From Phycisphaerae bacterium (GTDB lineage Bacteria > Planctomycetota > Phycisphaerae > Phycisphaerales > UBA1924): a stretch of DNA of 49,482 nucleotides. The position numbers and the translations under genes are program-made. The notes under the pieces were generated by a model. That model worked only from the letters and a program-made list of their open reading frames with translations. It was not told where the DNA came from and made no database searches. Below, in pieces: positions 19,099-37,632 of this stretch. Numbering within the stretch: position 1 is the first letter of the stretch; every line of letters starts with the position of its first letter. The stretch covers positions 1 to 49,482 of the forward strand of contig JAUHYE010000011.1 of NCBI GenBank assembly GCA_030426395.1. The letters run 5' to 3'.

Positions 19099-19131
19099 GG
19101 CGGGCCTCCTTCTCGGACCAGAGTTGCGTCC

Positions 19132-19160: not shown

Positions 19161-19276
19161 GGCGATCTGGATGAGGGGACGACCACGCACCACGATGTTC
19201 GCGTTGCGATTGGGGAAACGGCCCTGCGAGCCCGCCAGCGGGGTCGGCACGCCCGAGAAGGCGTCAGCGCTGGCGA

Positions 19277-19507
19277 ATGTCGGATCGGACATCGGCCATG
19301 TCTGATCAGACATCGACGATTGCGGATCAGGCACCGGCCATGTCTGATCAGACATCGACGATGTCGGATCGGACATCGGCCATGTCTGATCAGACATCGA
19401 CGATTGCGGATCAGACATCGGCCATGTCTGATCAGACATCGACGATTGCGGATCGGACATCGGCCAAGTCGGAGCAGACATCGGCGATGGCGGATCGGAC
19501 TTCGGCC
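19277..19507. repeat. tandem array of 21-bp units with 16-bp palindromes (array a)
   Basis: Eleven consecutive 21-bp units with no spacers fill most of the 19099-19515 non-coding stretch, and two decayed units follow to 19549. Units alternate in a 42-bp super-period: one type is the perfect 16-bp palindrome ATGTCTGATCAGACAT followed by CGACG (units at 19298, 19340, 19382, 19424), the other is a near-palindrome with GGATCGGACAT or GGATCAGACAT followed by CGGCC. Nearly every unit has one GATC, spaced 21 bp. Frames are open on both strands through the array (heptads such as SDQTSTM on plus), but there is no ribosome site, so I treat it as non-coding. Confidence 0.92.
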
Positions 19508-19515
19508 GCGGCGGG

Positions 19516-20421
19516 TCAGTCCCCGGCCCCGTCTGGCCCGAAACCGGTAGTCGTTGCCCCCTCGACCTCGCCGGGGGCCAGCCCCGCCCGGGCCCAGCCG
19601 GGGGATTTCTCGGGGCGGGGCTCCAGGTGGGCCAGCTCGTGGCGGACCATCACCCCCGGGGGTCCCCCATCGCTTGGAAAGAGCCGCAGCTCCAGGCGGC
19701 CGGAGGCATCGATCGTCGCCAGGCGCCCGCCGGGCAGCGGCTGGGCCCAGCGGAGGTCGGCGGCCACGAAGCCGGGGTCGATGTCGCCAAGGGGCTTGCC
19801 CGTGTCCTCGCGCAGGACGTCGTAGCGCAGCTCGCCATTGAACGGACTCTGGATGAACTCGCCCGGCGAGGTGTGCGTCGCGCGGGCGAGCCAGCCGGAG
19901 TTGCCGATCGGCTGGAACGCCTCGTAGCGATCGGGGACGGGCTGGTCCCAGCCGGGGCCGAGCATCCGCGCCCACGGGAACGCGCCGCGGTTGGGCGGGG
20001 GAACGGCGGCCCAGAGGCCCTCCTGTTCCTTCTCGCTGAGCGCGTCGCGGCTCTCTCCATCGGCGATGTACCCAGTGGAGCGCGTGTTGGTCAGCGCCGC
20101 CAGCCAGGGCGCGCGGCTGATGGCCCACGCGCCGCCGTAGATGGGGTCGAACGGACCGTCGACGGGGCCCTCGGCCAGATAACACAGGAAGCGGCCGTCG
20201 CGCGAGAGTGTGCTGCGGTGGGCCTTCACGCGCATCTTCGTCCACGCGCCGGGCTCGAGCGTGCCGGCGTCGCAGTCCCAGCGCAGCAGGTGCGTCCAGC
20301 GCGGATCGCCGGGATAGCGCACCACGACGAGCACGACGGGAACATCGCGCGCGGTGAGGCACCAGTAACGCGTCTCGTGCATGGACTCGGACACCGGACG
20401 CTCCCGCCCCACGGCCGCCAC
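19516..20421 (-). CDS. hypothetical protein, unknown family
   Basis: A 301-residue soluble protein. Start GTG 20421 follows the upstream gene by 3 nt; an ATG at 20382 (HETRYWCLTARDVPVV) is also possible and would give 288 residues. No signal peptide or membrane helix is visible. Tryptophan and Gly/Pro are frequent (RWTHLLRWDCDAGTLEPGAW, GPFDPIYGGAWAISRAPWL, GWLARATHTSPGEFI, ARIDASGRL-like LATIDASGRLEL), which suggests a beta-rich fold such as a propeller-like or lectin-like repeat, but I do not recognise it. The last residues are encoded by the decayed edge of the 21-bp array, so the C-terminus may have been set by the repeat. It is probably the last gene of the CTERM operon. Confidence 0.65.
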   Translation of the reverse strand: MAAVGRERPVSESMHETRYWCLTARDVPVVLVVVRYPGDPRWTHLLRWDCDAGTLEPGAWTKMRVKAHRSTLSRDGRFLCYLAEGPVDGPFDPIYGGAWAISRAPWLAALTNTRSTGYIADGESRDALSEKEQEGLWAAVPPPNRGAFPWARMLGPGWDQPVPDRYEAFQPIGNSGWLARATHTSPGEFIQSPFNGELRYDVLREDTGKPLGDIDPGFVAADLRWAQPLPGGRLATIDASGRLELRLFPSDGGPPGVMVRHELAHLEPRPEKSPGWARAGLAPGEVEGATTTGFGPDGAGD

Positions 20422-20424
20422 GCC

Positions 20425-21036
20425 CTACCGGCGCCGCCGCATCGCGGCCAGGCCGAGCGCGAGCACGAGCCCGCTCGCGGGCGCGGGGACGATCGTGATG
20501 CGGCCGGCGCCCTCGGTCAGGCCGTCCAGGCGGGGCTCGGCCCGGCTGGAGTCGCGCTCGATGTAGACGTCGAAGCGATCGGTCCGCGTCGAGAGGTCGA
20601 CCGCGAAGGCGCTGGCGTCCGTGGGCGCGGTGAAGGTGGCCTCCCAGAAGGCGATCGGATCGCTCGGGTCCGCGGTGCCGCCGGAGACGGGAAAATTGAT
20701 CTGGCCCGCGATGATGCCCGCGTAGCCGCCGGCGTCGGGCGTCCCGATGGTCGTGCCCGGGCCGGCCATCGGATGCACGAGCGACACGTCCGACCACGCG
20801 GCCGAGACGTCCACCCCGCCCGAGTCGGCCAGCAGGCTGGTCACGACGCCGGCCACGGCGTAGTCGCGCGTGCTGTCGAAGCCGGCCCAGAGGCGGACGG
20901 TGGTCGATTCGCCCGGCGCGAGCACGGGCTGGTCGATCTCGATGACGACCTCGCCGGGCATCTGGGCGTGGCTCGCGGTGGTCGTGGCGAGCACCGCGGC
21001 GGTCGACGCGAGGGCGGCGAGGGTCGTTCGGATCAT
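20425..21036 (-). CDS. secreted VPAPA-CTERM family protein, copy 2 (internal start of the fusion frame)
   Basis: From ATG 21036 the frame gives 203 residues with a full signal peptide (MIRTTLAALAS... ASHAQ), the family core (IDQPVLAPGESTTVRLWAGF, YAVAGVVTSLLADSGG, GGYAGIIAGQINFPV, DPSDPIAFWEATFTAPTDAS, VDLSTRTDRFDVYIERDSS) and the tail VPAPASGLVLALGLAAMRRRR. A GGGGA site lies about 5 nt upstream, weaker than in the other copies. It is most similar to copy 1 (18493-19098). The presence of its own signal peptide argues that this unit is normally made separately. Confidence 0.75.
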   Translation of the reverse strand: MIRTTLAALASTAAVLATTTASHAQMPGEVVIEIDQPVLAPGESTTVRLWAGFDSTRDYAVAGVVTSLLADSGGVDVSAAWSDVSLVHPMAGPGTTIGTPDAGGYAGIIAGQINFPVSGGTADPSDPIAFWEATFTAPTDASAFAVDLSTRTDRFDVYIERDSSRAEPRLDGLTEGAGRITIVPAPASGLVLALGLAAMRRRR

Positions 21037-22032
21037 GGTTTTCCCCAGAGTGCGGCCAACCGGCGAGTGCCGGGCGGGCGGAGTTCTCATGTTCCGATAC
21101 GGGCCGCGGCCCTCAGCCGGTTCCGTGGGTCCGCACATCCGCCGGATCGGCCCGCACGGGCTCCCAGGGCCGGTGCCGGGCCCGAGAACGGCGATGACGG
21201 TCCTTCGCGCTGCCTTGACCGAAGTTCGGGTTGCCTTGACCGGAGTTCGCGCTGCCTTGACGGAAGTTCGCGCTGCCTTGACCGAAGTTCGGGTTGCCTT
21301 GACCGAAGTTCGCGCTGCCTTGACGGAACTTCGCGCTGCCTTGACCGGAGTTCGCGCTGCCTTGACCGAAGCTCGGGTTGCCTTGACCGAGGCTCGCGCT
21401 GCCTTGACCGAGGCCCGGGCTGCCGTGAACTGTGGCCGGGCCGGGCGTTCTCGGCGGCGGCGCGTGGCCGAGAGGCCCAGGGCCAGCACGGCGGCGCTGG
21501 CGGGGGCGGGGACGACGAAGATCGACGCCTCGCCCTCGGTGACCAGGTCGGTGATGCGGATGCTTGTGGAGGACTCACGCTCGATATACACGTCATAGAG
21601 GTGCGTGTCGGTGAGCATGTCCACGCGGTAGCCGCCGCCGGCACCCAGCGGGGCGGTGAAGGTCACCTCCCACACGTCTACTGGGTTGGTCGGGTCGGCG
21701 TAGATCATCGCTGGCGGAAAGTTCAACTGGCCGAGGACATTGCCAAAGATCCCGACCTCGGTCAGCTCCGGCGGTGTCTGCGGCCCATCGAAGGGTGGAA
21801 GGGCGCGATAGTCGTTCCACGCCGCGCGGGGGTCCAGGTCGCCGTCGTCGAAGCGGAAGTCGAAGCGGGCCCCGGCCAGGGCGTAGTACGCCTCGGGGAA
21901 CGTGGCGGTGACGGTGACGAGCGCGCTCTCGCCGGGCATCAGCACGGGCCGGTCGGCGTGGATCGACAGGCCGACGACCTGCGCCGACGCGAGCGGGGCG
22001 ACCAGGAACGCGGCGGCGATGGCGGTGCGCAT
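20425..22032 (-). CDS. in-frame fusion of two VPAPA-CTERM proteins (copies 3 and 2)
   Basis: One uninterrupted frame of 535 codons holds two complete family members. Residues 1-194 are copy 3: signal peptide ending PLASAQ, PVLMPGESALVTVTATF, GQLNFPPAMIYADPTNPVDVW, FVVPAPAS, hydrophobic helix and RRRR. Instead of a stop the frame continues through GAA (21448-21450). A linker of 138 codons (21450-21037) is mostly the 21-bp array, read as Lys-Ala-Ala-Arg-Thr-Ser-Val heptads. Residues 333-535 are copy 2, with its own ATG. The fourth Arg codon is CGA (21451-21453), one transition from TGA, so stop loss is plausible. Whether the fusion is translated, or only the two parts, cannot be told from sequence. 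Copy 3 has GGGAG 7 nt before its start. Confidence 0.7.
   Translation of the reverse strand: MRTAIAAAFLVAPLASAQVVGLSIHADRPVLMPGESALVTVTATFPEAYYALAGARFDFRFDDGDLDPRAAWNDYRALPPFDGPQTPPELTEVGIFGNVLGQLNFPPAMIYADPTNPVDVWEVTFTAPLGAGGGYRVDMLTDTHLYDVYIERESSTSIRITDLVTEGEASIFVVPAPASAAVLALGLSATRRRRERPARPQFTAARASVKAARASVKATRASVKAARTPVKAARSSVKAARTSVKATRTSVKAARTSVKAARTPVKATRTSVKAARRTVIAVLGPGTGPGSPCGPIRRMCGPTEPAEGRGPYRNMRTPPARHSPVGRTLGKTMIRTTLAALASTAAVLATTTASHAQMPGEVVIEIDQPVLAPGESTTVRLWAGFDSTRDYAVAGVVTSLLADSGGVDVSAAWSDVSLVHPMAGPGTTIGTPDAGGYAGIIAGQINFPVSGGTADPSDPIAFWEATFTAPTDASAFAVDLSTRTDRFDVYIERDSSRAEPRLDGLTEGAGRITIVPAPASGLVLALGLAAMRRRR
21209..21418. repeat. tandem array of 21-bp units between two CTERM units (array b)
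   Basis: Ten contiguous 21-bp units with a few substitutions. Units start GCTGCC or GTTGCC, continue TTGACCGAAGTTC and end CGG or CGC; degraded partial units flank the array on both sides (about 21188-21208 and 21419-21439). Many units contain the odd palindrome CCGAAGTTCGG. The array lies in the linker of the 535-codon frame and has no stop in that frame. It differs in sequence from array a but has the same period. Confidence 0.92.
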
Positions 22033-22053
22033 GGCAAGGCTCCCGGTGGGTGT

Positions 22054-22638
22054 TCAGCGGCGGCGACGCGCGAGCAGCAGGCCGGACGTGAGCACGAGGC
22101 AAACGCCCGGCGCGGGCACGACGAGGATGGAGGCCTCGCCCTCGACCAGCAGATCGAGACGCGACTCGGCGGCCGACATGTCACGATCGGGATAGACGTC
22201 GAACCTGCTGGTGAGCGTCGAGAGGTCGACGCGGTAGCCGCCGCCGGCGTCGGGGTGGGCGTAGAAGGTGAATTGGAAGAAGGGGATGGGGTTGGTCGGG
22301 TCGGCGTAGATGCCCGCGGGCGGGAAGTTGAGCTGGGCGGCGATGATGCCCTCGATGCCGCGCTCGGTGCGAACGCCCGAAGTGGGGCCCGAGGCCATCG
22401 GGGGCAGGAGCGAAAAGTTCGAGATCGAGGCGAACGGATCGGCGCCGTCGACGAGCATGTCGAGCACGGCAGAGGCGAACGCGTAATCGCCGTCGGGGAA
22501 GCTGGCCAGCAGCCGCACGGTCGTGGAGTCGCCCGGCGCGAGGATGGGCTCGTCGACGTCGAAGGTGACGCCCACGACCTGGGCGCCCGTGGCCGGGGCG
22601 ACGCACGCGAGGGCGGATGCTGCGAGGACTCGGATCAT
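22054..22638 (-). CDS. secreted VPAPA-CTERM family protein, copy 4
   Basis: A 194-residue exported protein; signal peptide ends PATGAQ (about 20). Core: VDEPILAPGDSTTVRLLASFPDGDYAFASA, IIAAQLNFPPAGIYADPTNP, then a divergent IPFFQFTFYAHPDAGGG where other copies have AFWE.TFTAP. The tail is VPAPGVCLVLTSGLLLARRRR, with a Cys in the hydrophobic part. It shares AGGGYRVDL with copies 3 and 5, forming a subgroup. An AGAGAGG site precedes the ATG. Gap to copy 3 is 21 nt, so the genes are likely co-transcribed. Confidence 0.85.
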   Translation of the reverse strand: MIRVLAASALACVAPATGAQVVGVTFDVDEPILAPGDSTTVRLLASFPDGDYAFASAVLDMLVDGADPFASISNFSLLPPMASGPTSGVRTERGIEGIIAAQLNFPPAGIYADPTNPIPFFQFTFYAHPDAGGGYRVDLSTLTSRFDVYPDRDMSAAESRLDLLVEGEASILVVPAPGVCLVLTSGLLLARRRR

Positions 22639-22659
22639 GGTGGACCTCTCTCTTCCTTG

Positions 22660-23256
22660 TTACCGGCGCCGCACGGCCGCGGCGCCAAACGCGAACACGA
22701 ACGCGATGCCGCTCGCCGGCGCGGGCACGACGAAGATGGAGGCCTCGCCCTCGACGAGCACGTCGAGACGGGACTCGCTCGTGGACGACTCGCGAGCAAT
22801 GTAGACGTCGAACTTGGTCACCTCGGTGAGGAGATCGACGCGGTAGCCGCCGCCCGCGGCGGGGTCGGCGTTGTACTGCACTTCCCAGAAGGCGATGGGG
22901 TTGCTCGGGTCGGCGTAGATCATCGCGGGGGGGAAGTTGAGCTGGCCGGCGATGATGCCCTCCCAGCCGCGCTCGGTGAACACCGGGCCGCTGGGCGAGG
23001 GGCCGGCGAACGGCGGGAGCAGCCCCGCGCCCGACCACGACTCGCGGGCCCGCCCGGTGACGCCGTCGACCAGCAGGCTCATGGCGATGCCCGCGACGGC
23101 GTAATCGGCGTCGTCGAAGTTGGCATAGAGCCGGACGGTCGTGCTCTCGCCGGGGGCGAGCACGGGCCGGTCGACCTCGATGGTGACGCCCACGACCTGG
23201 GCGCCCGCCGTGCCGGCGAGCACGGCAACCACGGGTGGGACGATGGCGCGCATCAT
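22660..23256 (-). CDS. secreted VPAPA-CTERM family protein, copy 5
   Basis: A 198-residue member with a signal peptide ending LAGTAGAQ. Core: VDRPVLAPGESTTVRLYANFDDADYAVAG, GWEGIIAGQLNFPPAMIYADPSNPIAFWEVQYNADPAAGGG and a Lys-containing EVTKFDVYIARESSTSES. The tail is VPAPASGIAFVFAFGAAAVRRR, only three arginines and a Phe-rich helix. Two ATG codons in tandem (23256, 23253) could start it; GGAAGAGAG is upstream. It has 22 and 15 nt to its neighbours. Confidence 0.85.
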   Translation of the reverse strand: MMRAIVPPVVAVLAGTAGAQVVGVTIEVDRPVLAPGESTTVRLYANFDDADYAVAGIAMSLLVDGVTGRARESWSGAGLLPPFAGPSPSGPVFTERGWEGIIAGQLNFPPAMIYADPSNPIAFWEVQYNADPAAGGGYRVDLLTEVTKFDVYIARESSTSESRLDVLVEGEASIFVVPAPASGIAFVFAFGAAAVRRR

Positions 23257-23271
23257 GGGTTGGCTCTCTTC

Positions 23272-23874
23272 CTATCGGCGCCGGCGCGCGGCGGCGCCCA
23301 GGCCCAGCAGCAGCAACGCCCCGCTGGCGGGCGCGGGCACCAGGAACAGCCGCTCGCTGCCCTCGACGACCATGTCCAGACGCGACTCGCTGAGCGACGA
23401 CATGCGGCTGGGGTACATGTCAAGGCGGCTGGTGTCCGTCGAGAGATCGACGAAGAACCCGCCGGTGTCGCTGGGCGCCGTGAAGGTCGCCTGCCAGAAC
23501 GCGATGGGATTCTGCGGGGCGCTGTAGATCATCGCCGGCGGGAAGTTGAGCTGGCCGGCGAGGATGCCCGTCACGCTGCCCATGCCGTCGGGAGCGCCGG
23601 CGGTGGTGCCCGGGCCGTTCATTGGCGCCACGAGCTGCCAGTCGCTCCAGGCGCCCGAGACGTCGTTGGTCGAATCGGCGAGAAGGCTGGTGGCGATACC
23701 CGCCACGGCGTAGTCGGCCGTGGTGAAGGCGATCTCGAGGGTCACGGTGGTGCTGTCACCCGGCGCGAGCACGGGCTCGTCGACCAGGATGTTCACGTTG
23801 ACGGTCTGGGCCGAGGCCATGCCGGCGGCCATGGTCATGGCGGCAAGGGCGGCGATGGTGATCGGATTCCGCAT
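23272..23874 (-). CDS. secreted VPAPA-CTERM family protein, copy 6
   Basis: A 200-residue member. ATG 23874 is chosen because CAGGAGGAG lies just upstream and because a clear signal peptide follows (ending MASAQ); the frame is open much further upstream but through the next gene. Core: VDEPVLAPGDSTTVTLEIAF, YAVAGIATSLLADSTND, VAPMNGPGTTAGAPDG, GILAGQLNFPPAMIYSAPQNP, AFWQATFTAPSDTGGFFVDL. Tail VPAPASGALLLLGLGAAARRRR. It and copy 7 share SDW.LV.PM.GPGTTAG and SRLDMYP..SSLSESRLD, showing recent duplication. Confidence 0.87.
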   Translation of the reverse strand: MRNPITIAALAAMTMAAGMASAQTVNVNILVDEPVLAPGDSTTVTLEIAFTTADYAVAGIATSLLADSTNDVSGAWSDWQLVAPMNGPGTTAGAPDGMGSVTGILAGQLNFPPAMIYSAPQNPIAFWQATFTAPSDTGGFFVDLSTDTSRLDMYPSRMSSLSESRLDMVVEGSERLFLVPAPASGALLLLGLGAAARRRR

Positions 23875-23900
23875 GATGCACTCCTCCTGAACGTGTTCGG

Positions 23901-24491
23901 TTAGCGATGCCTGCGAGCGAGAAGACCAAGGCCCAGCAAGACGGCCGCGCTGGAGGGCGCGGGGACGGCGATCGCGATGAAGCCCGAGCCCTCGACCACC
24001 ACGTCCAGCCGAGACTCGCTGAGCGAAGAGCCGCGGGTTGGGTACATGTCCAGCCGGCTGGTCCGCGTCGCGAAGTCGATGATCCCGTTCGCCACCCCGG
24101 CGGTGAACGTGGCCTGCCAGAACGCGATGGGGCTGGAGGGGTCGGCGTAGATGCGCGCTGGGGGGAAGTTGAGCTGGCCGGCCAGGATGCCCGTCATGTC
24201 GTATTCGCCGGTGGGCCCGCCCGCCGTGGTGCCCGGGCCATCCATTGGTGACACGAGCTCCCAGTCGCTCCACCGCCCCTCGGTGTCCCCGACGATGTCG
24301 GTGACCACCAGGTCGGTCGCGATGCCCGCCAGGGCGTAGTCGCCGGTGGAGAACTCGGCCCTCAATGTGACCCGGGTGCTCTCTCCGGGGAGTATCAGGG
24401 GCTCCTCGACGTCGATGATGAGGTTGACGGTCTGGGCGCACGCGGCTCCAGCGCTCAGGACGAGCGATGCGATCGCGATTGTTCGGATCAT
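23901..24491 (-). CDS. secreted VPAPA-CTERM family protein, copy 7 (first gene of the cluster)
   Basis: A 196-residue member; ATG 24491 with GGAG 8 nt upstream. Signal peptide ends GAACAQ. Core: VEEPLILPGESTRVTLRAEF, YALAGIATDLVVTD, VSPMDGPGTTAGGPTG, GILAGQLNFPPARIYADPSS, AFWQATFTAG, then IDFATRTSRLDMYPTRGSS. The tail AVPAPSSAAVLLGLGLLARRHR carries a His in the basic cluster. A promoter-like pair with the family 10-mer lies about 40 nt upstream, so transcription of the tandem cluster probably begins here and may run to 19516. Confidence 0.85.
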   Translation of the reverse strand: MIRTIAIASLVLSAGAACAQTVNLIIDVEEPLILPGESTRVTLRAEFSTGDYALAGIATDLVVTDIVGDTEGRWSDWELVSPMDGPGTTAGGPTGEYDMTGILAGQLNFPPARIYADPSSPIAFWQATFTAGVANGIIDFATRTSRLDMYPTRGSSLSESRLDVVVEGSGFIAIAVPAPSSAAVLLGLGLLARRHR

Positions 24492-24531
24492 GTCTTGTCT
24501 CCGACTGGGATGCCTCTCGTCCTCGATACCC

Positions 24532-24559
24532 AGCATACCCGAAAGCGCGCCAGATCCAA
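24532..24559 (-). promoter_or_regulatory. predicted promoter of the tandem CTERM cluster
   Basis: Minus strand TTGGAT (24554-24559) and TATGCT (24532-24537), spacing 16 bp, with the same GGTATGCTGG 10-mer and a preceding GCG.TTTC stretch also present at the copy 1 promoter. This lies 40 nt before the first ATG of the cluster, in the only spacer of the cluster longer than 30 bp. Confidence 0.45.
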
Positions 24560-24590
24560 AGACAATTTGCATGCTTATCGGATACGGAAC

Positions 24591-25202
24591 TTACTGCCGC
24601 AGGGCCAGGATCAGCTCGATGGTCCCCACCTGCTGGTCGAGCCGGCGGGCGATGTCCAGGGGGCTCTGGCCGCCATCGGCCAGCTCGTAGACCTCCTGAT
24701 GGAGCGGGTCGTCGCTGGCATTGGGCTTGGCTGGCCCTTCGTCGGTTTCCGCCCAGGGGTCGCTCGCGGGCTCGGGCGCGGCCCGCCGGGGCTCGGCGGG
24801 CATCCTGGCCTCGGCGACATGGTTCGAGACGGCCCCCGCCGCCAGTCGGGCCTCCAGGTTTTCGATCCGCTCGTCGGCCTGGTCGAGCAGGGCCTCGAGC
24901 CGGGCGGCCCGGGTCTCCAGGCGAGCGGCCAGGTCCCGGACGATCGCACCGACCTCGGCGGCCCGCTCCATGTCGGCCTGGCGGTCGTCGAGCGTCTCGC
25001 GCATCTCGGCAACGGCGTCGTCCTCGGGCGAGCGACGCTGGCGCTTCCATTGCAGGCGCATCAGCGTCCAAGTCAGGATGACCACGCCCGCGCCAAGAGC
25101 GAACCACGAGGCCATGTTCTGGAAGCCGCCCGAACCCCCGGTGCCGGTCTGGGCATCTGTCTGGGCATCCGTCTGGGCCAGGATGAGGACAAGCAGGTCC
25201 AT
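24591..25202 (-). CDS. membrane-anchored coiled-coil protein with DUF6115-like C-terminus
   Basis: A 203-residue protein. A short N-terminus with Ala-Gln-Thr-Asp repeats (QTDAQTDAQTG, from a 12-bp DNA repeat) precedes one membrane helix (about 31-48, WFALGAGVVILTWTLMRL). A coiled coil rich in Glu/Arg/Ala follows (about 60-120), then a disordered Pro/Ala/Glu part. The C-terminal SPLDIARRLDQQVGTIELILAL resembles the small helix-turn-helix-like module of DUF6115/DUF2802 proteins, often near flagellar or motility genes; no such genes are here. ATG 25202 is 30 bp from the divergent tilS start, so the two share a very short control region. Confidence 0.65.
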   Translation of the reverse strand: MDLLVLILAQTDAQTDAQTGTGGSGGFQNMASWFALGAGVVILTWTLMRLQWKRQRRSPEDDAVAEMRETLDDRQADMERAAEVGAIVRDLAARLETRAARLEALLDQADERIENLEARLAAGAVSNHVAEARMPAEPRRAAPEPASDPWAETDEGPAKPNASDDPLHQEVYELADGGQSPLDIARRLDQQVGTIELILALRQ

Positions 25203-25232
25203 CGCCAAGGGTAGTGTCGTTCGGGCGGGCCC

Positions 25233-26270
25233 GTGAGCGTTCGGTACGATGGTCCTGTGTCCAGCAGAGCCACCGAATCCGCCGCCTCGGCCAAGCGACG
25301 CATCGTTCGATCGTGGCGATCCCTGACCGGCGGTTCGGAGGTGCGCGACGCCGATCGCCCGACGCTGCTGGCGGTGTCCGGCGGGGCCGACTCTTGTGCG
25401 TTGGCGATTGCGTTGGCGGGGCGGCCGGGCGTGAAGTGCATCGGCCACGTCGTGCACGACATGCGGCCAAGAGAGGTGGCCGAGGCTGACCGGCAGCTTG
25501 TCGAGAAGCTGGGGCGGGCGCTCGACCTTCCGGTGCTCGTGCAGCACGTCGAGGTCGGGCCGGGGAACGCGGAAGGGAACGCCCGCCGGCTGCGCTACGC
25601 GGCGTTGTCGGAGCTGGCGGCCAACGGCGAGTGCCAGTATGTTGCCGTGGCCCACCATGCCGACGACGTGCTGGAGACGATGCTGGCGAACCTGATCCGA
25701 GGCGCGGGGCCGCGCGGCTTGAGGGGGCCGGCGCCTAGGCGCACGCTCGACGAGAACACCACGCTCGTGCGCCCGATGCAGCACGTCACGAGGAATGAAG
25801 CCGAGGGTATCTGCGACGCGGCCGATTGGTATTGGGCGCACGACGCGACCAACGACGATCCGGGCGGTGACGACGCCCCCCTGCGCGCGGCGATCCGGGC
25901 TCGGGTGCTGCCCGTGCTCGAAGAGCTGCGCCCCGGCGCGGCAGCCCGGGCTTCTCGCGCGGCCGAGGCTGTTGGCCAGGCGGTTCGCGTCATGGATGCG
26001 ATGGTGGATGCGGCGTGGCCAACATTCGCGACCGTCGATGGAAACGGCTTGCGACTCGATGCGACCACGCTCAAGGACCAATTGCCCGCAGTCCGCGAGG
26101 GGCTGTTGAGGCGGGTTCTGGGCCACTTCGGGGATAAGGGCCACGACCAGCTTTCGGCCACGACTACCAGGAGCTTGCTCGGCTGGATGCTCGATGGCCA
26201 GGGCGCGCGTGAGGTCGCCGGCCTGCGCTTCGAGCACGCCGGATCGAGCGTGCTCGTGTCGCGAGCCTGA
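25233..26270 (+). CDS. tilS: tRNA(Ile)-lysidine synthetase
   Basis: An N-type ATP pyrophosphatase that adds lysine to C34 of the CAU-anticodon tRNA-Ile, turning it into an AUA reader. The PP-loop SGGADS is at 49-54; HVVHDMRP and AVAHHADDVLETMLANLIRGAGPRGL are the typical next motifs. At 345 aa it has the catalytic domain and a short C-terminal region but lacks the long extension of E. coli TilS. Start is GTG 25233 or an in-frame GTG at 25257; neither has a clear ribosome site. Presence of tilS means AUA is read normally as Ile inside genes, of interest given the AUA start proposed for mrpE. Confidence 0.92.
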   Translation: MSVRYDGPVSSRATESAASAKRRIVRSWRSLTGGSEVRDADRPTLLAVSGGADSCALAIALAGRPGVKCIGHVVHDMRPREVAEADRQLVEKLGRALDLPVLVQHVEVGPGNAEGNARRLRYAALSELAANGECQYVAVAHHADDVLETMLANLIRGAGPRGLRGPAPRRTLDENTTLVRPMQHVTRNEAEGICDAADWYWAHDATNDDPGGDDAPLRAAIRARVLPVLEELRPGAAARASRAAEAVGQAVRVMDAMVDAAWPTFATVDGNGLRLDATTLKDQLPAVREGLLRRVLGHFGDKGHDQLSATTTRSLLGWMLDGQGAREVAGLRFEHAGSSVLVSRA

Positions 26271-26303
26271 CGCGCCAACCCTCCGGCGCGCCAATCATGG
26301 GCC

Positions 26304-27548: not shown

Positions 27549-27689
27549 GGCGGCGCGACGGCACGCGGGACGCCGAGGATCGCGACGAGTATTGGGGCGA
27601 GGACCGGAAACCCGCAGAAGAACGCCCAGGGAACCCGGCAGCGGCCATGCCGCCCGCGAACACCCCGCGGCGGGACGAGATCTCCCATG

Positions 27690-27794
27690 GGAGACCTCAG
27701 GTTCCAGGCCGGTGATCTTAAGTTCCAGGCCTGGAACCTTGGGTCTCCGGCCTGGAACTTGAGACCGCCGGCCCGAAGATTGAGACCTCAAGAA
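27690..27794. repeat. tandem array of 21-bp units with alternating orientation (array c)
   Basis: Five 21-bp units lie between convergent genes (27549-27817 has no gene). Units 1-4 are a 16-bp element followed or joined by AGGCC/CGGCC. The 16-bp elements alternate in orientation: the element of unit 3 is nearly the reverse complement of that of unit 1, and unit 4 of unit 2. Unit 2/3 form the perfect 16-bp palindrome GTTCCAGGCCTGGAAC (27722-27737). Just before it TCTCCCATGGGAGA is another perfect palindrome (27681-27694). Confidence 0.8.
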
Positions 27795-27817
27795 CGGCGT
27801 GCAGCACGGCCCCCCGG

Positions 27818-28228: not shown

Positions 28229-28237
28229 GCGTGATGG

Positions 28238-28957: not shown

Positions 28958-29030
28958 GGGCGATGGTAGGGTCTTTCACGTCGCCGTCGGCTACTGTCGC
29001 CCTCACGGCCCATCGGCCGGGGAGCCCGCC

Positions 29031-30872: not shown

Positions 30873-30888
30873 CCACTACAATCATCAC

Positions 30889-32304
30889 GTGCCAAAGACC
30901 CCGCCTGCCGACATCCAGAACACTGCCCGCGAAGACGACTGGGCGGTTCGTTGCGAGGGCGTCGGCAAGCGTTTCAAGCTGTACGACAACCCGTGGCACC
31001 GCATCGCCGAGTGGTCGGCGTTCAACCGTCTGAAGCTCCACCGCGATTTCTGGGCGGTCCGTGGCGTGACCTTCGGCCTGCGGAAGGGCGAGTGCCTGGG
31101 TGTCGTGGGCCGCAACGGCAGCGGCAAGAGCACGCTGCTGAAGATGGTCACGGGCGTGAGCATCCCCACCGAGGGCTCGGCGTCGCTGAGCGGCCGGGTG
31201 CTGAGCCTCATCGAGCTCGGAGCCGGACTCAACCGGGACCTCACAGGCCGCCAGAACGTGCACAACATGGCCCGGCTGCTGAACTTCCCGCCCGACTTCG
31301 CCAAGTCCAAGATGGCCGAGATCGAGTCCTTTGCCGACGTGGGCGCCTTCTTCGATCGCCCCGTCCGCAGCTACAGCAGCGGCATGACGGTGCGCGTTAC
31401 CTTCAGCATCTTCGCGGCCTTCGAGCCCGAGGTGCTGATTGTCGACGAGGCACTGAGCGTGGGCGACATCTTCTTCGTGCAGAAGTGCACACGCCGCATC
31501 CGAGAGCTGCTCGACAACGGCACGACCCTCCTGCTTGCCAGCCACGACGCCGCGATCACCAACTTGTGTGATCGCGCGATCCTGCTCGAACAAGGCGAGG
31601 TGGCGTTCCAGGGCGAGCCCGTCGACACGATCGCCCGCTACCACGCGTCCTTGCGTCAAGGGGGCGCGAAAACGACGCCCGACAAATGGGAACGAACCGA
31701 AGAGACGCCCGAGCACGCCCAACAGGTCGCCACGCAGCGTGGCGCCCGGCTGGCACAGAGGGTGATCGAGGCCGACACGATCGGTGAGAGCGAGCACCAC
31801 GAACGCCGGCACGGTGAGGGCGGCCTCCGCATCCTCGCGTGCCAGATCTGCGACGACCAGGAGAGGCGGGCGACCGTGCTGGGGATCGGCCAGACGCTGC
31901 ACGTCCGCGTGCTCGTCGAGGCCGCCCAGCCTGTGGAGCGGCCGCGAGTCGGGCTCCGCCTCATCGACCGCTTCGGCACGCAGGTGTTCGGGCAGGGCAC
32001 GCTCCAGCAGCAGACCGAGATGCCATCGCTCGTTCCGGGCGATCGGGTCGTGGTCTCGTTCAATCTCGAACTGCAGCTCAAGCCCGGCGAGTACACGCTT
32101 GGCCTCTCCGCCAGCGAGCCCGACGCCACGGGGGATCCCAACGGGGCCCTGTTCCACGACCACATCAACGGGCTGGGTCCCATCCGCGTCAACCACCCGG
32201 CCCACGAGCCGCTGCCGTTTTTCGGGACGGCCCGCCTGCCCATGTCGGTGACGTGCGAGCCCGCGGGACGCGAATCGCCGACCAGACTCGAGGCCTCGCC
32301 GTGA
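30889..32304 (+). CDS. polysaccharide ABC transporter ATPase (Wzt/TagH type)
   Basis: GTG 30889, 16 nt after the glycosyltransferase, giving 471 residues. The N-terminal ATPase has Walker A GRNGSGKS (74-81), signature YSSGM (162-166) and Walker B VLIVDEAL with Asp186-Glu187, plus the ELGAGLNRDLTGRQNV sequence typical of O-antigen and teichoic acid exporters. Residues about 290-450 resemble the Wzt C-terminal glycan-recognition domain (LRILACQICDDQERR...LRLIDRFGTQVFGQ...FNLELQLKPGEYTLGL). No Wzm-type permease is in the window. Stop overlaps the next start (GTGA). Confidence 0.9.
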   Translation: MPKTPPADIQNTAREDDWAVRCEGVGKRFKLYDNPWHRIAEWSAFNRLKLHRDFWAVRGVTFGLRKGECLGVVGRNGSGKSTLLKMVTGVSIPTEGSASLSGRVLSLIELGAGLNRDLTGRQNVHNMARLLNFPPDFAKSKMAEIESFADVGAFFDRPVRSYSSGMTVRVTFSIFAAFEPEVLIVDEALSVGDIFFVQKCTRRIRELLDNGTTLLLASHDAAITNLCDRAILLEQGEVAFQGEPVDTIARYHASLRQGGAKTTPDKWERTEETPEHAQQVATQRGARLAQRVIEADTIGESEHHERRHGEGGLRILACQICDDQERRATVLGIGQTLHVRVLVEAAQPVERPRVGLRLIDRFGTQVFGQGTLQQQTEMPSLVPGDRVVVSFNLELQLKPGEYTLGLSASEPDATGDPNGALFHDHINGLGPIRVNHPAHEPLPFFGTARLPMSVTCEPAGRESPTRLEASP

Positions 32305-33143
32305 CCCATTCCACCGAGCCCATCGCGTTCCTCACCGGCTGCGGGCGATCGGGCACCAGCATCCTCGGCCAGATGATCGGCGCGAGCCCGAGCGTGCGGT
32401 ACCTCAACGACTACTTCCCGATCTGGGTCGAGCCTTTCCCCCAGTGCGACGCGTGGGGTCTGCGGCACGGCACGCGCGGGCTCGACAACCGCATCGAGCT
32501 CACCGAGGCCGACCTCACCGAGGAGGGGCAGGACCAGTTCTGGGACATCGCCCGCCTGCAACGCCGCGGCAAGCCGCTGCTGGTCGAGAAGGTCGCGCTC
32601 AACAACTACCGCTTGCGCTTCCTCGCGGCCCTCGCGCCCGAGGCGAAGATGATCAACATCGCGCGCCACGGCGTCGAGGTCGCCCGCTCGATCGCCAAAC
32701 GCATCGAGGTCGGCGAGTGGTACGGCGAGGGCGATCGCAAGTGGAGGTTGCTGCAAGACCTCGCCCGTGAGCGGGGGCTCCACGACCAGCTCGGGCTGTG
32801 CACCACCGACGTGGCGCGTGGCCTGCTCGAGTGGCGGATGAGCATCGAGGTCGCCCGCGAGCACGTCGCCGCCATCGGCGAGGGCCGCGTCCTGCAAGTC
32901 CGCTACGAGGACCTCCTCGCCGACGCCGCGGGCGTGGCCACGCGCATCGCCGGGCATCTGGGCCTGCCCGACGGCGGCGAGGCGATGCGGCGATGGGCCG
33001 CGGGCCGCATCGAGCGCAAGAACCCCGCGTCGACCGACGTGCCCCCGCCACCCGAGGCCGAGCCAATCGCCGGCGACGCCCTGCGCATGATGGGTTACGA
33101 CCCCGCGGGGGGCCTGCTGGCGGGGCCTACCGTCGCCCCATGA
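32301..33143 (+). CDS. sulfotransferase family protein
   Basis: A 280-residue cytosolic PAPS-dependent sulfotransferase candidate. The 5'-phosphosulfate loop FLTGCGRSGTSILGQMIGAS is at about 9-28 and the 3'-phosphate-binding region NIARHGVEVARSIAKR at about 118-133; LQVRYEDLLADAAG precedes the C-terminal helix. GTG start overlaps the ABC gene stop, and its stop overlaps the next ATG, so it is coupled on both sides. The acceptor is unknown; the neighbours point to a surface glycan. Confidence 0.82.
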   Translation: MTHSTEPIAFLTGCGRSGTSILGQMIGASPSVRYLNDYFPIWVEPFPQCDAWGLRHGTRGLDNRIELTEADLTEEGQDQFWDIARLQRRGKPLLVEKVALNNYRLRFLAALAPEAKMINIARHGVEVARSIAKRIEVGEWYGEGDRKWRLLQDLARERGLHDQLGLCTTDVARGLLEWRMSIEVAREHVAAIGEGRVLQVRYEDLLADAAGVATRIAGHLGLPDGGEAMRRWAAGRIERKNPASTDVPPPPEAEPIAGDALRMMGYDPAGGLLAGPTVAP

Positions 33144-35110
33144 CCGAGGCCCAGACCCCCAAATCCAAGCCGCCGATCGTGGTCCTCGGCGTCCCGCGCA
33201 GCGGCACCACGCTGCTGCGCACCATGCTCGACGCGCACCCGGCGATCGCCTGCGGCCCGGAGACGCCCTGGCTGGCCGAGCACCAGCCGGCCACGCTGCT
33301 GGGCCTGGTCCGCGCGATGCGCGACGCCGAGCACGGGTATTGCAAGAGCTATAAGCAACCGGCGGACACGCTGCACCGGGCGGCGCGGAAGTTCCTTGAC
33401 GAGGTCATGTTGGCCTACGCGCACGCTCGCGGCAAGACGCGCTGGGCCGAGAAGACCCCCAACAACGCGCTGCACCTCGAGGCGCTGCACACGCTGCTGC
33501 CCGACGCGAGGTGGGTGTGGATCACGCGCGATGCGCTCGACGTGGCGCACAGCACGACGACCGTCGCGGACCACCGCAAGGGCATCGCGCCGGTCTATGA
33601 GAAGTCGCTGCGCATGACGGCGAGGCAGACCACCGCCGCCACGCCGCTGGCCGCGACGCTGCGTTGGGTCAACTGGAACCGCCGGATCGAGGCATTCCTG
33701 GACGGCAAGGCCGCCCACCACCTGACCTACGAGAGCCTCGTCTGCGCGCCAAAGGCCGAGATGCGCCGGCTCTGCGCCTTCCTCGACGAGCCCTACGACG
33801 ACGCGATGCTGGCCTACGACACCAAGAGCCACGACCTGCCGAAGTGGGAATGGGGCAGCACCGACGTCGCCCAGCACGGCCGGGTCGTCACCGGCCGCAT
33901 CGGGGCTGGTCTTGAGCACTTCGACGAGCCGATCCGAGATGGCCTGGCGGCGATGGCCTCACTCTGGAGCCCGCCGGGGCGGCCCGGGCCGGTCGATGCC
34001 CGCCCCTGCCTGCCGGCCCACGCCATGACCGCCCAGCTCCTTGGCGAGCAGGCGGCCGAGTTGCTTCCCACGCGCGAAGCGAGCCCGCCCGAGCGCCTCG
34101 CCCGGCTGGGCGAGTTCCTGGTCGAGCGCGCAGCCCTCGGGCCGGCGGCCGATCACGCCGAACTCCCACCCCTGCCAACCCGCATGGCCCCCGCCGCGCT
34201 CGCGCTGGCGTACGCCGGCGTGCCGGCCACCATCATCCCCGCGCACGACGAGCACGCCGAGGCCCTGCGCACACACGCCGAGCGTTGGGACGTGCAGGGC
34301 ACGCTGACGATCGCGCCCGCCGACACGCACGAGCCCAAGCCACAACCCATCACCACGTCCACCGGCGACCCGACCGGCCTGCGCACGCCCGCCCCCGCGC
34401 CCCTCGCGATCCTGGCCAGGCTCGACGAGCTGCGGAGCCCGCCCTTCACGGCGTTCATGGCGCAACTGAACGCGTTCGCGAAGCTCCACGGCCTGCGCGA
34501 GTTCGACTCGTGGAGCAAGATCTGGGAGTACCCCTGGCTCTGGCTGCACGCCATCGAGTCGCTGCCGCTGGCCGGCCTGCGCATCATCGACATGGGCAGC
34601 GAGCTGAGCCCCATGCCGTGGTGGCTGGCGACGCTCGGGGCACGCGTCACGCTCGTCGAGACCACGCGCGGCATGGAAAAACAGTGGGCCGCGCTCCGCG
34701 ACACGCTCAACGTGCGGGTCGACTGGGCGTTCACCGACGACGAGACGATTCCCGCGCCCGACGGCCACGCGCACCTGCTCACCAGCCTCAGCGTCATCGA
34801 GCACCAGCCCGACAAGCGCAAGGCCATGGACGAGATCGCGCGGGTGCTCGTGCCGGGCGGGGTGCTGGCGATGAGCTTCGACATCTGCGAGCCCGAGCTT
34901 GGGATGGCCTTCCCCGAGTGGAACGGCCGCGCGCTGACGATGGCCGAGTTCGAGCGCGATCTTTGGAGCCACCCATCGTTCTCGAAGACCCGCCCGGCCG
35001 GCGCGATCGACTGGAATACCGACGACATCGGCCCTTACTTCGAGTGGCACAAGTCCACCGCCGCGCACCACACCTACGTGACCGGCGCGGCGGTGATGCG
35101 CTGCGATTAG
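33140..35110 (+). CDS. sulfotransferase-methyltransferase fusion protein
   Basis: A 656-residue two-domain protein. Residues 10-285 are a second sulfotransferase: IVVLGVPRSGTTLLRTMLDA (PAPS loop), KTRWAEKTPNNALHLEALH, RWVWITRDALDVAHSTTTV (3'-phosphate site) and HLTYESLVCAPKAEMRRLC. A Pro/Ala-rich linker (about 290-430) joins it to a class I SAM-dependent methyltransferase: RIIDMGSELSPMPWWLATLG (motif I), VTLVET, HLLTSLSVIEHQPDKRKAMD and VLVPGGVLAMSFDICEPE. It suggests successive sulfation and methylation of the same glycan or lipid. ATGA overlap with the previous gene; its stop overlaps the convergent gene by 4 bp. Confidence 0.85.
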   Translation: MTEAQTPKSKPPIVVLGVPRSGTTLLRTMLDAHPAIACGPETPWLAEHQPATLLGLVRAMRDAEHGYCKSYKQPADTLHRAARKFLDEVMLAYAHARGKTRWAEKTPNNALHLEALHTLLPDARWVWITRDALDVAHSTTTVADHRKGIAPVYEKSLRMTARQTTAATPLAATLRWVNWNRRIEAFLDGKAAHHLTYESLVCAPKAEMRRLCAFLDEPYDDAMLAYDTKSHDLPKWEWGSTDVAQHGRVVTGRIGAGLEHFDEPIRDGLAAMASLWSPPGRPGPVDARPCLPAHAMTAQLLGEQAAELLPTREASPPERLARLGEFLVERAALGPAADHAELPPLPTRMAPAALALAYAGVPATIIPAHDEHAEALRTHAERWDVQGTLTIAPADTHEPKPQPITTSTGDPTGLRTPAPAPLAILARLDELRSPPFTAFMAQLNAFAKLHGLREFDSWSKIWEYPWLWLHAIESLPLAGLRIIDMGSELSPMPWWLATLGARVTLVETTRGMEKQWAALRDTLNVRVDWAFTDDETIPAPDGHAHLLTSLSVIEHQPDKRKAMDEIARVLVPGGVLAMSFDICEPELGMAFPEWNGRALTMAEFERDLWSHPSFSKTRPAGAIDWNTDDIGPYFEWHKSTAAHHTYVTGAAVMRCD

Positions 35111-35703
35111 CGGCGTCGCCTCGCGCACATCAGCAGCCCGCCCAGCACGACCACCCCCGCCGGCGCCGGCACCACGCGGATCGTCGCCTCGCCCTCGGCG
35201 AAGTCGCCCAGGCGGCTCTGGCACAGACTGCTGCTCCTCACCGGGAACACGCAGAAGTCCTCGGTCATCGTCGTCAGCGAGAGATCGAAGGGTGCCGCCA
35301 CGTCCGCCGGTGCCGTGTACGTCACCTCCCAGAACGCGATCGGGTTGCTCGGATCGGCGTAGATCTCGGCCGTCGGGCTGTTCACCTGCCCGCAATTGAT
35401 GCCCAGCACACCCTCGGGCCCCACGACGCCTGGCATCCCAAGCCACGGCGGACGCAACATCCGCGGATCGCTCAGGCCCTGCCCGCCCCCGGACGACAGG
35501 AGGTCGGTGATGACCTGGGCGACCGCGTAGTCGGCGGCGTCGTCGAAGTACGCCTCCATCCGGATCGTCGTCGACTCGCCCGGCCTCAGTGTGTCGTCGT
35601 CCACCACGATCGTGATGCCGTTGGCGGCGATCTGGGCGCTGGCCGCGCCGGCGGTGAGCAGCAGCGCTGCCGCGCTCAGGGTCTTCGCTCGCGTGATGGT
35701 CAT
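35107..35703 (-). CDS. secreted VPAPA-CTERM family protein, copy 8
   Basis: A 198-residue member with a signal peptide ending AGAASAQ. I chose ATG 35703 (GGAGGA 6 nt upstream, matches copy 9); ATG 35709 is an alternative. Core: ITIVVDDDTLRPGESTTIRM, DPSNPIAFWEVTYTAPADVA, ESR-like QSRLGDFAEGEATIR, tail VPAPAGVVVLGGLLMCARRRR. It departs from the family in having two extra cysteines around FCVFPVRSSSLCQ and one in NCGQVNSPT, so a disulfide is possible. Most similar to copy 9 next to it. Confidence 0.85.
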   Translation of the reverse strand: MTITRAKTLSAAALLLTAGAASAQIAANGITIVVDDDTLRPGESTTIRMEAYFDDAADYAVAQVITDLLSSGGGQGLSDPRMLRPPWLGMPGVVGPEGVLGINCGQVNSPTAEIYADPSNPIAFWEVTYTAPADVAAPFDLSLTTMTEDFCVFPVRSSSLCQSRLGDFAEGEATIRVVPAPAGVVVLGGLLMCARRRR

Positions 35704-35722
35704 GGGCATTCCTCCTCCTCCC

Positions 35723-35751
35723 ACCATACCGGACGTTTTGTCGTCGCGCCA
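35723..35751 (-). promoter_or_regulatory. predicted promoter of VPAPA-CTERM copy 8
   Basis: TATGGT (35723-35728, minus strand) inside GGTATGGTGG, with TGGCGC 17 bp upstream (35746-35751). The -35 hexamer is poor, but the -10 10-mer and the preceding AACGTCC are identical to the copy 9 upstream region. Confidence 0.4.
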
Positions 35752-35778
35752 GCAAAGCGCGGCGACCGGGCGCCGCGT

Positions 35779-36375
35779 CTACCGGCGTCTTCGCGCCGCG
35801 ACCAGCAGCCCGCCCAGCACCACCACCCCCGCCGGCGCCGGCACCACGCGGATCGTGGCCTCGCCCTCGGCGAAGTCGCCCAGGCGGGACTCCGTCCGGG
35901 CCGTCGATATCCTGATGTACACGTCGAACCGGGTCGTCTCGGTCGTGAGGCCGACATCCAACGGCGTCGCCACGTCGCCCGGCGCGGTGTACGTGGCTTC
36001 CCAGAACGCGATGGGGTTGCTCGTGTCGCCGTAGATGCCCCCGAGGAAGTGCAACTGCCCGGCGATGATGCCGCTCACGCCGGTGCCATCGATGACACCC
36101 ACCGTCGTGCCCGGCCCGGCCATGGGCCGCGTCAGACGGAGGTCGCTCAGCCCTTGGGACCCCGCCGAGGAAAGCAGATTCGTGGCCACGCCGCTCATGC
36201 AATAGTCACTCGCATCGAAGTACGCCTCCATCCGCACCGTCGTGGCCTGCCCCGGCTCCAGCACCGGGTCGTCCACCAGGATCGTGATGCCGTTGGCGGC
36301 CGTCTGGGCACTGGCCGCGCCGGCGGCCAGCAGCAGGGCCGCCGCGCCCGCGACGGTCGTTGTGGTTCTGGTCAT
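35779..36375 (-). CDS. secreted VPAPA-CTERM family protein, copy 9
   Basis: A 198-residue member; ATG 36375 with AGAGGAGG upstream. Signal peptide ends AGAASAQ. Core: VDDPVLEPGQATTVRMEAYF, VATNLLSSAGSQGLSD, RPMAGPGTTVGVIDG, GIIAGQLHFLGGIYGDTSNP, AFWEATYTAPGDVA. Tail VPAPAGVVVLGGLLVAARRRR, nearly identical to copy 8, whose gene follows after 75 bp with its own promoter-like element. The pair lies about 10 kb from the main cluster, beyond the glycan genes. Confidence 0.86.
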   Translation of the reverse strand: MTRTTTTVAGAAALLLAAGAASAQTAANGITILVDDPVLEPGQATTVRMEAYFDASDYCMSGVATNLLSSAGSQGLSDLRLTRPMAGPGTTVGVIDGTGVSGIIAGQLHFLGGIYGDTSNPIAFWEATYTAPGDVATPLDVGLTTETTRFDVYIRISTARTESRLGDFAEGEATIRVVPAPAGVVVLGGLLVAARRRR

Positions 36376-36394
36376 GGGCCGTCCTCCTCTGACC

Positions 36395-36423
36395 ACCATA
36401 CCGGACGTTCCGCCCGCGTGCCA
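36395..36423 (-). promoter_or_regulatory. predicted promoter of VPAPA-CTERM copy 9
   Basis: TATGGT (36395-36400, minus strand) inside GGTATGGTGG and TGGCAC 17 bp upstream (36418-36423). The order and spacing equal those at copy 8, with ATG 19 nt downstream of the -10 box in both. Confidence 0.4.
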
Positions 36424-36471
36424 GCCGATTCCGAGGAAGTTCGCGCGGGCGGCGCGGGCCGGCGGCGGGCT

Positions 36472-37125
36472 CTACGCGGCGTCTTTGGCGGTCTTCCTGG
36501 CTTCGCGGACCGATCCCAGTTGCACGATCAGGATGGCGCCGCGGACCAGATGCTTGCCGTGCTGGGCGTCGATGGCGTACCAGGCCTCGCCGACGCCCAC
36601 CTTGAGCGTCTCGTCGGTGAACGTCTTGCTGGTCGTCGTGCCCATGATGGTGTAGCCGGTTTCGCCCGGCAGCATCCGCTTGACGATGTAGAACGTCCCC
36701 TGCGGCCCGCCCCCGTCCCACGAGATCACCACCGCCCCGCCCGGGCGCACGACGAACCTCGGGCTCCTCGGGGTCTTGGGCGGCCCGGCGTCGCTGGCCT
36801 TGGCCCTGGGGCTCAGCCCCGCTAAAACGTACACGCCGGTGTCGTCGGTCACGGCCGCGTGCGTCTTCATCGCGCTGATCGCCGCGCGCGTGCGCTTCAT
36901 CGTGTGGCGGATGCTGATGCGCCACGCGAGCGTCGCGCTCTTGGCCCGATTGGCGGCGATGTTGGCCTCCAGCCGCTTCACGCGGCTCTCCTCGGCGAGA
37001 TCGCGGATCTCCTGGGCGAACGCGTCGCTGATCCCGATCGCCGCGGCGTTGTCGATCCACTTCTGCGTGTGGGCCCGGATCCAGTCCAGGGCGTCGGTGG
37101 GGTTGCGGGGCAGGTTCTCGGGCAT
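36472..37125 (-). CDS. hypothetical protein with helical N-terminus and Fn3-like C-terminus
   Basis: A 217-residue protein from ATG 37125 (MPENLPRNPTDALDWIRAHT). Residues 1-110 are mostly helical and charged (EEIRDLAEESRVKRLEA-like, SIRHTMKRTRAAISAMKTHA). After a basic Pro-rich hinge, residues about 130-200 look like a small beta domain (VVISWDGGGPQGTFYIVKRM, GYTIMGTTTSKTFTDETL) resembling fibronectin type III. No signal peptide. The frame is open far upstream through the 21-bp arrays, but the segment before this ATG is repeat-derived and I leave it out. It lies 96 bp downstream of a CTERM promoter region on the same strand. Confidence 0.65.
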   Translation of the reverse strand: MPENLPRNPTDALDWIRAHTQKWIDNAAAIGISDAFAQEIRDLAEESRVKRLEANIAANRAKSATLAWRISIRHTMKRTRAAISAMKTHAAVTDDTGVYVLAGLSPRAKASDAGPPKTPRSPRFVVRPGGAVVISWDGGGPQGTFYIVKRMLPGETGYTIMGTTTSKTFTDETLKVGVGEAWYAIDAQHGKHLVRGAILIVQLGSVREARKTAKDAA

Positions 37126-37138
37126 GTCGGTGGTCCTG

Positions 37139-37222
37139 TCGGGGCTTGTCGGGAACGGACTCGGGCTTGCGGGGAGCGGACTCGGGCTTGTCGGGAGCGG
37201 ACTCGGGCTTGCGGGGAGCGCT
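37139..37222. repeat. tandem array of 21-bp units (array d)
   Basis: Four contiguous 21-bp units with core CTCGGGCTTG followed by CGGGGAGCGGA or TCGGGAGCGGA; the fourth ends in a change to GCT and a fifth is decayed. It starts 13 bp before the ATG of the 36472-37125 gene, so it occupies the place of its promoter. I see no palindrome in this unit. Between it and array e (37223-37346) nothing was recognised. Confidence 0.85.
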
Positions 37223-37346
37223 CGGAGGCTTGCCGGGGGGCCACGCCGGCCCCCGCGCTCCCATCCATCGACCACCCCCACCCGCCGCTGCACCCAAAAA
37301 CCCCGCCGGCGGCCCAGAAAGCCCCACAGGCGCACGTTTTGCGCCC

Positions 37347-37493
37347 GTTGACGGCTTTCAACGGGCCCAAGACAGGTGGAAACGCCCCCGTGACACCCGT
37401 CAACGGCCCATTCCCAAGCGTCAACGCCCCGTTGACGCTTCGCAACGGGGCGTTGACACCTGTCCACGGGCCGTTGCAATGTTTCACGGGCCC
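37347..37493. repeat. tandem array of 21-bp units with 16-bp dyads (array e)
   Basis: Seven 21-bp units. The first 16 bp tend to GTTGAC....GTCAAC-like dyads and the last 5 bp are always G/C (GGGCC, GCCCC, GGCCC, GGGGC). Units 4/5 form a larger inverted repeat, AAGCGTCAAC (37416-37425) and GTTGACGCTT (37431-37440), with a 5-bp centre. This is the most diverged of the longer arrays but the period is strict across 147 bp. Confidence 0.82.
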
Positions 37494-37527
37494 GTCGCCA
37501 TCGCCCGCCCGACCCGCCGGGGCCACC

Positions 37528-37632
37528 GGCCGTCTTGCCCGGGCCCCGGGACGAGTCGCCCGAGCCCCGGGCGGTCTCGCGGTGGCCCCCGGCCGTCTCG
37601 CCCGAGCCACGGGCCGGCTCGCTCAGCCACCG
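37528..37632. repeat. tandem array of 21-bp units overlapping a gene end (array f)
   Basis: About five GC-rich 21-bp units beginning GGCCGTCT or a variant and containing TCGCCCGAGCC. In the plus frame they would read as Gly-Arg-Leu-Ala-Arg-Ala-Pro heptads. The last unit runs into the stop codon of the ankyrin gene (37623-37625). Arrays d, e and f together occupy most of a gene-free 497-bp stretch. Confidence 0.78.

Follow-up and report, generated by a model that had tools for sequence, protein, structure and literature searches.

The window analysed here, a stretch of 49,482 nucleotides that makes up the whole of contig C2 of a Phycisphaerae bacterium genome (GCA_030426395.1), carries six tandem arrays, and TRF gives a period of 21 or 42 bp at all six places, in agreement with the preliminary description of this DNA; three of the arrays are strong (1, 2 and 4), one is moderate (6) and two are weak (3 and 5) (Table 1). 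Among named relatives of a protein encoded in the window, the best come from Phycisphaerae and Planctomycetota at 45-46% identity, which points to a planctomycete-like host. On the minus strand lie tandem genes for a family of paralogous secreted proteins, each about 200 amino acids long and ending in a VPAP-hydrophobic-RRRR tail that is PEP-CTERM-like by eye; the members tested had no match in Pfam, and array 2 joins two of them in a single ORF. The plus strand encodes a second SecA-like protein, which is short (680 amino acids) and has SecA domains, and kin of it were found in 41 of 41 relatives searched, with matches that include ordinary SecA.

Table 1. Arrays and neighbouring features of the window (positions 1 to 49,482; array calls by TRF).
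Feature	Position	Structure	Further TRF values	Method
Short SecA-like gene, plus strand	16405-18447			
Secreted paralogs, minus strand	18493-24491 and 35107-36375			
Array 1	19277-19507	11 units of 21 bp, 42-bp higher-order pattern	42-bp unit at 19281-19507: 90% matches, 0% indels	TRF
Long ORF joining two paralogous genes, minus strand	20425-22032			
Array 2	21204-21411	9.9 units of 21 bp	87% matches, 0% indels	TRF
Array 3	27690-27794 (TRF 27728-27787)	weak; roughly 3-5 diverged units, flanked by convergent genes	2.9 units, 77% matches, 5% indels, score 55	TRF
Gene downstream of array 4, minus strand	36472-37125			
Array 4	37139-37237	about 4-5 units of 21 bp	42-bp row: 8% indels; 21-bp row at 37142-37220: 0% indels	TRF
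Array 5	37293-37493	weak, diverged 21-bp units with inverted half-units	37381-37430: 2.4 units, 72%, score 51; further weak piece at 37293-37332	TRF
Array 6	37515-37632 (TRF 37515-37622)	5.1 units of 21 bp	70%, score 104	TRF
Ankyrin-repeat gene	37623-39575			Pfam
81-bp period	42319-42471			

Printed in register, the arrays contain higher-order units of 42, 63 and 84 bp, and the diverged edges of several are, by eye, still in phase, as would be expected from unequal exchange. The unit of array 1 is nearly self-complementary (a palindrome of 16 plus 5 bp; self-complementarity p = 0.002, dyad pairing p = 0.02), and the array sequence has no match beyond its own site in the whole genome on either strand. 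Local identity at lag 21 is 0.74 in array 3; array 4 lies directly upstream of a minus-strand gene and array 6 at the 3' end of the ankyrin-repeat gene. The arrays had been placed outside genes, and their non-coding character is supported below, but array 2 sits inside the long ORF that joins two of the paralogs. By codon usage the array 2 segment rates as non-coding (-7.3, -11.7 and -3.2 per 30 codons), unlike the genic portions of the ORF, whose scores lie between +5.4 and +14.9. Array 2 is probably ancestrally intergenic and open in frame here. The congener G002 carries a related array at the equivalent position, and there the predicted end of the upstream gene falls 52 bp short of it, so the open frame looks secondary.

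The 21-bp period extends far beyond the window. Our sample covered 0.988 Mb of the 3.49-Mb, 186-contig genome, comprising the window and 71 stretches from C1 and C3-C70 (at most 20 kb from each start, with a second 20 kb for two). A scan of lags 5-119 that scored runs of 42-bp windows with a self-identity of 76% or more gave 54 matches at lag 21, 54 at 42, 43 at 63, 44 at 84, 62 at 81 and 25 at 105. These six lags account for 282 of the 353 self-similarity matches, every other lag having at most 25. A dinucleotide-shuffled control (one copy) gave 0 matches at all lags from 5 to 119, and with 54 matches at lag 21 against 0 in the shuffle a chance origin of the signal is rejected. Similarly, of 69 arrays with a TRF score of at least 80, 38 had a unit whose length is a multiple of 21 bp (hereafter 21n arrays), 16 a unit of 81 bp, and the remaining 15 had 12 other periods between them. 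At this rate the whole genome would hold about 130 strong 21n arrays; TRF group counts omit order loci L091 and L094-L103 and loci L074-L079 (in no group). The excess at 21 anticipated from the window was thus recovered genome-wide by both autocorrelation and TRF. The 81-bp period, which also occurs in the window and at many other loci, is probably coding, and presumably resembles a two-copy dockerin/EF-hand repeat; a few 84-bp arrays look coding as well.

Gene context was assessed by means of a simple, purpose-built gene finder based on codon usage, applied to 49 strong 21n arrays from this genome (G000) and congeners G002-G005. Across these five species of the genus, 43 of the 49 arrays lie outside predicted genes and 6 inside, although one of the 43, on L065, looks by eye like an acidic coding repeat. 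Within-array variation has a 3-base rhythm (p < 0.05) in only 2 of 49 arrays, stop triplets occur at 34.0 per kb versus 34.1 in other intergenic DNA, open frames number 4.5 per array versus 4.7 in random intergenic units, and the 61 substitutions between G000 and its sister species G004 in arrays 5-6 are split 19/19/23 over the three positions. These results, with the gene end that precedes the array in G002, uphold the view that the arrays are non-coding. The 37 arrays with both neighbours known lie between 24 co-directional, 8 divergent and 5 convergent gene pairs, which resembles other gaps of at least 250 bp (119, 77 and 32, respectively). There was no clear preference of these 37 arrays for gene starts or gene ends over other large gaps, and no orientation bias; the clustering at gene ends that had been raised for the arrays was accordingly not seen.

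What these arrays have in common is length and not sequence, as the preliminary description had argued from six of them: multiples of 21 dominate the lag spectrum genome-wide, units are mostly unrelated, and no common motif emerged. Across the 1176 pairs of unit profiles compared, similarity averaged 0.425 versus 0.422 when permuted, with 22 pairs at 0.55 or above (6 in the control) and six at 0.60 or above (0 in the control). Two of these six closest pairs occupy corresponding slots between species (G003/G005, and array 2 of G000 with its counterpart in G002), two are on L060, one is on L010 and one spans contigs (L059/L070). Such sharing is mainly local; the proposal that the unit is renewed locally has partial support, in that units recur among three arrays of contig L060 and between two of L010, but most other arrays are unrelated. 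Among 33 arrays (L065, which looks coding, was left out), no 4- to 8-mer was common to more arrays than in shuffled units. The repeats are thus real, genome-wide, non-coding and length-locked.

Their distribution among relatives is uneven. Strong 21n arrays (score of at least 80) number 38 in 988 kb of G000, 1 in 40 kb of G002, 2 in 40 kb of G003, 5 in 240 kb of G004 and 3 in 240 kb of G005. None was found in G001 (180 kb), G006 (60 kb), G021 (140 kb), G016 (120 kb), other family loci (62 kb) or the order loci (135 kb), a total of 697 kb that includes two of the six congeners (G001 and G006). About 7 would be expected in the 180 kb of G001 at the G000 rate and about 2 at the G005 rate; the arrays are therefore probably, though not surely, absent from G001, and the 60 kb of G006 make too small a sample. 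Individual sites also vary: the gap at 27.5 kb, which holds array 3, contains repeats of differing units in G000, G003 and, more weakly, G005, and no clear repeats in G004 or G002 (boundaries approximate in the latter), while alignment at 37.1 kb shows array 4 to be missing from G004 and arrays 5-6 to be kept.

We judge it somewhat more probable than its opposite that these arrays are non-coding minisatellites of a published class, formed and homogenised locally in steps of two helical turns in part of one genus. An array would start with the local tandem duplication of 21 bp (two turns of B-DNA) between genes, after which unequal exchange or slippage between units would expand and homogenise it with register kept, giving rise to multiples of 21; short inverted repeats may favour this process or be favoured among its products. 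Most speculatively, 21 may be retained because no smaller whole number of bases makes up a whole number of helical turns (2 x 10.5), such that a shape-reading protein or recombination complex would meet every unit on the same face. The lag spectrum, the unrelated units, the non-coding tests, the dyad symmetry described below, the absence of array 4 from G004 and the published length class all support this explanation. Counting against it are patchy symmetry, weak covariation, indels that are no rarer than elsewhere, and the lack of any 10.5-bp component in unit AT or purine profiles. No half-unit rhythm was found either, and self-identity is lowest at lags 10-11; the AT profile shows a 7-bp component at z = 2.5, one of ten harmonics tested. 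One of the roles first suggested for the arrays, that of a phased element for protein binding or bending, finds no backing in these profiles or in the gene context.

The strongest rival to local formation in two-turn steps is a fixed-step mutational origin without function, in which a 21-nt step (for example, staggered breaks that are filled and joined) would duplicate any sequence, the product being tolerated between genes. We regard this as unlikely, but as the alternative that deserves most weight: it agrees with the sequence independence of the units, their lack of orientation preference, their restriction to part of the genus and their varying presence between species at the same site, but by itself it would leave the dyad excess and the clustering of conserved columns within units unexplained. 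Indels bear on it at one locus. Arrays 5-6 align between G000 and G004 over 356 columns with 61 substitutions and 0 indels, whereas other G000-G004 gaps have one indel event per 10.5 substitutions, and therefore about 6 would be expected, which hints at selection on array length at this single locus. Within-array indel counts give no such hint: the paucity of indels first remarked in the window is true of the arrays but not special to them, with 0% indels by TRF in 27 of 43 intergenic 21n arrays and, in the other genomes sampled, in 28 of 38 whose period is at least 10, so that indels are no rarer in 21n arrays than in those of the other genomes. Over array gaps as a whole there were 59 substitutions and 7 indel events versus G004, a count that includes the non-orthologous array 4, and 38 substitutions and 4 indel events versus G005, a small sample.

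Many units carry an inverted repeat. Self-complementarity was significant (p < 0.05) in 21 of 44 G000 arrays with a score of at least 60, some of them within genes, and dyad pairing (p < 0.05) in 12 of 43 intergenic arrays, with a combined p of about 1e-10. Stems of at least 7 bp at 75% pairing were present in 13 of 43 arrays, whereas 60 permutations gave 0.7 on average and never more than 3, and consensus units exceed random intergenic 21-mers from the same genomes in dyad symmetry (p = 8e-7). Stem columns were less variable than permuted controls (-0.225 versus -0.138, s.d. 0.031) in a permutation-controlled comparison, the uncontrolled stem-entropy version being biased by the choice of best geometry. 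Within units, variable columns tend to lie together (z = 3.4 at lag 1). Nonetheless, dyad symmetry is far from universal among the arrays, and significant symmetry is absent from several strong ones (array 2, L022 and L056).

This dyad excess is what would be expected if the arrays were transcribed and each unit formed a small stem-loop of a structured RNA or protein sponge, and transcription has been suggested for constant-length repeats of this kind in passages of an earlier study (PMC8161180). We consider such RNA hairpins distinctly improbable. The best single case of paired change, at L039 (2923-3127), where two hairpins with different 6-bp stems alternate on the same spacer, is in their favour, but compensatory change is not general: only 2 of 43 arrays showed significant covariation (p < 0.05; combined p = 0.97), and L039 alone is strong. 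Stem mismatches comprise 22 G-T and 24 A-C pairs, with no G-T excess and hence no signature of RNA wobble; the lack of orientation bias also argues against transcribed hairpins, and the window has no Rfam match at gathering cut-offs.

A second lineage bears on the role of sequence. Among 80 outgroup loci (1343 kb), 5 arrays were 21n, of which 4 came from one record, Ureibacillus terrenus, whose locus L239 has 21-bp CTYGGGC arrays at 7773-8204 and 14020-14544. In the U. terrenus genome, CTYGGGC is repeated at 21 bp in 386 places and the reversed pattern in 0; among 81 genomes of the same family, 15 had a match (43 in G109, the one further genome in which the arrays are strong, 10 in G053 and 7 in G045), single matches being no more than the reversed control gives. 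These arrays share with those of the planctomycete the exact 21-bp spacing, but they belong to another phylum and have one motif genome-wide, whereas the planctomycete arrays are without a common motif. They also show 1-bp register shifts, which would be incompatible with a strict helical constraint. The single motif of Ureibacillus, like the clustering of conserved columns within units, would suit a binding array for one sequence-specific polymerising protein, as proposed for Bacillus in passages of the same study (PMC8161180); for the planctomycete arrays we hold this to be very unlikely, given that no motif was found in more of the 33 arrays than in shuffled units.

Two further readings have almost no standing. 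Seven-codon coding repeats, suggested by 21 being seven codons, by the open frame of array 2 and by the 6 of 49 arrays in predicted genes, are rejected on the absence of codon rhythm, the ordinary stop frequency and the even spread of substitutions reported above. Mobile extragenic palindromes of the REP/RAYT kind, which the extragenic, often palindromic, tandem units of about 20 bp bring to mind, are just as hard to credit and not supported, since most loci have unshared units, no dispersed family-wide palindromic consensus was found, and the Y1 transposase family PF01797 has no match in array-bearing G000 (93% complete), G003, G005 or G041, with matches in G002 and G004. Passages on the palindromic units (REP) of Escherichia coli describe elements that are likewise intergenic, palindromic and often clustered, but have units of 30-37 bp with one family consensus (PMC2884548). 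The tandem repeats of archaeal Borg elements, as described in passages of another report, are similar in their independent origin, fast evolution, partly intergenic location and occasional hairpins, but differ in having varied unit lengths, perfect copies and about half (43-65%) of their number in ORFs (PMC9879509).

The preferred reading assigns the arrays to a known class. The preliminary description had seen no described class with this property, but repeats of constant length (20-21 nt) and variable sequence are already published: in the passages concerned, Subirana and Messeguer report two main repeat sizes, 20-21 and 51-53 nt, in 176 Bacillus genomes, with length constant and sequence not conserved, extend the 20-21-nt repeats to other bacteria, remark on the match to two helical turns, and propose a polymerising protein or small RNAs as roles (PMC8161180). 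We read the planctomycete arrays as a variant of this published, unexplained class and not as a new one: constant length, differing sequences and a mainly non-coding position are all found here, and a species-wide short sequence is not. An earlier survey by the same two authors in J. Bacteriol. is said to treat the same constant-length repeats. As far as the published passages go, both sets of repeats have 20-21-nt units, are mainly non-coding, comprise several unrelated sequences per genome, are species-specific, are scattered over unrelated bacterial groups and include multiples (40-41 nt in the published class; 42, 63 and 84 bp here) (PMC8161180). They differ in host lineage, Bacillus and others versus a planctomycete, and in that, according to those passages, most arrays of several species have a characteristic short sequence, of which we found none (PMC8161180); this trait does not strictly define the class. 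The strings 'palindrom' and 'hairpin' are absent from the main text of that paper (PMC8161180), and the dyad excess is, as far as its passages go, new. New here, then, are the planctomycete-like host, the absence of a common motif, the dyad excess, and the existence of congeners with and without detected arrays.

More tentatively, and at rather less than even probability, the clade may possess a system that reads length and is indifferent to sequence, producing or maintaining tandem DNA in exact two-turn quanta with a preference for dyad-symmetric units. It could be an architectural protein or a recombination or repair enzyme of fixed step; such a system would have been gained or lost inside a single genus and would have a counterpart in Bacillota. 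Fixed length, free sequence and the lack of a common motif together make the published proposal of a polymerising protein that binds a motif less convincing, and the dyad excess is a new clue to constant-length repeats. The clade offers a cleaner test of these repeats, whose function published work leaves unexplained, and, with congeners in which no arrays were detected, the responsible gene or process could be sought by genome comparison within one genus.
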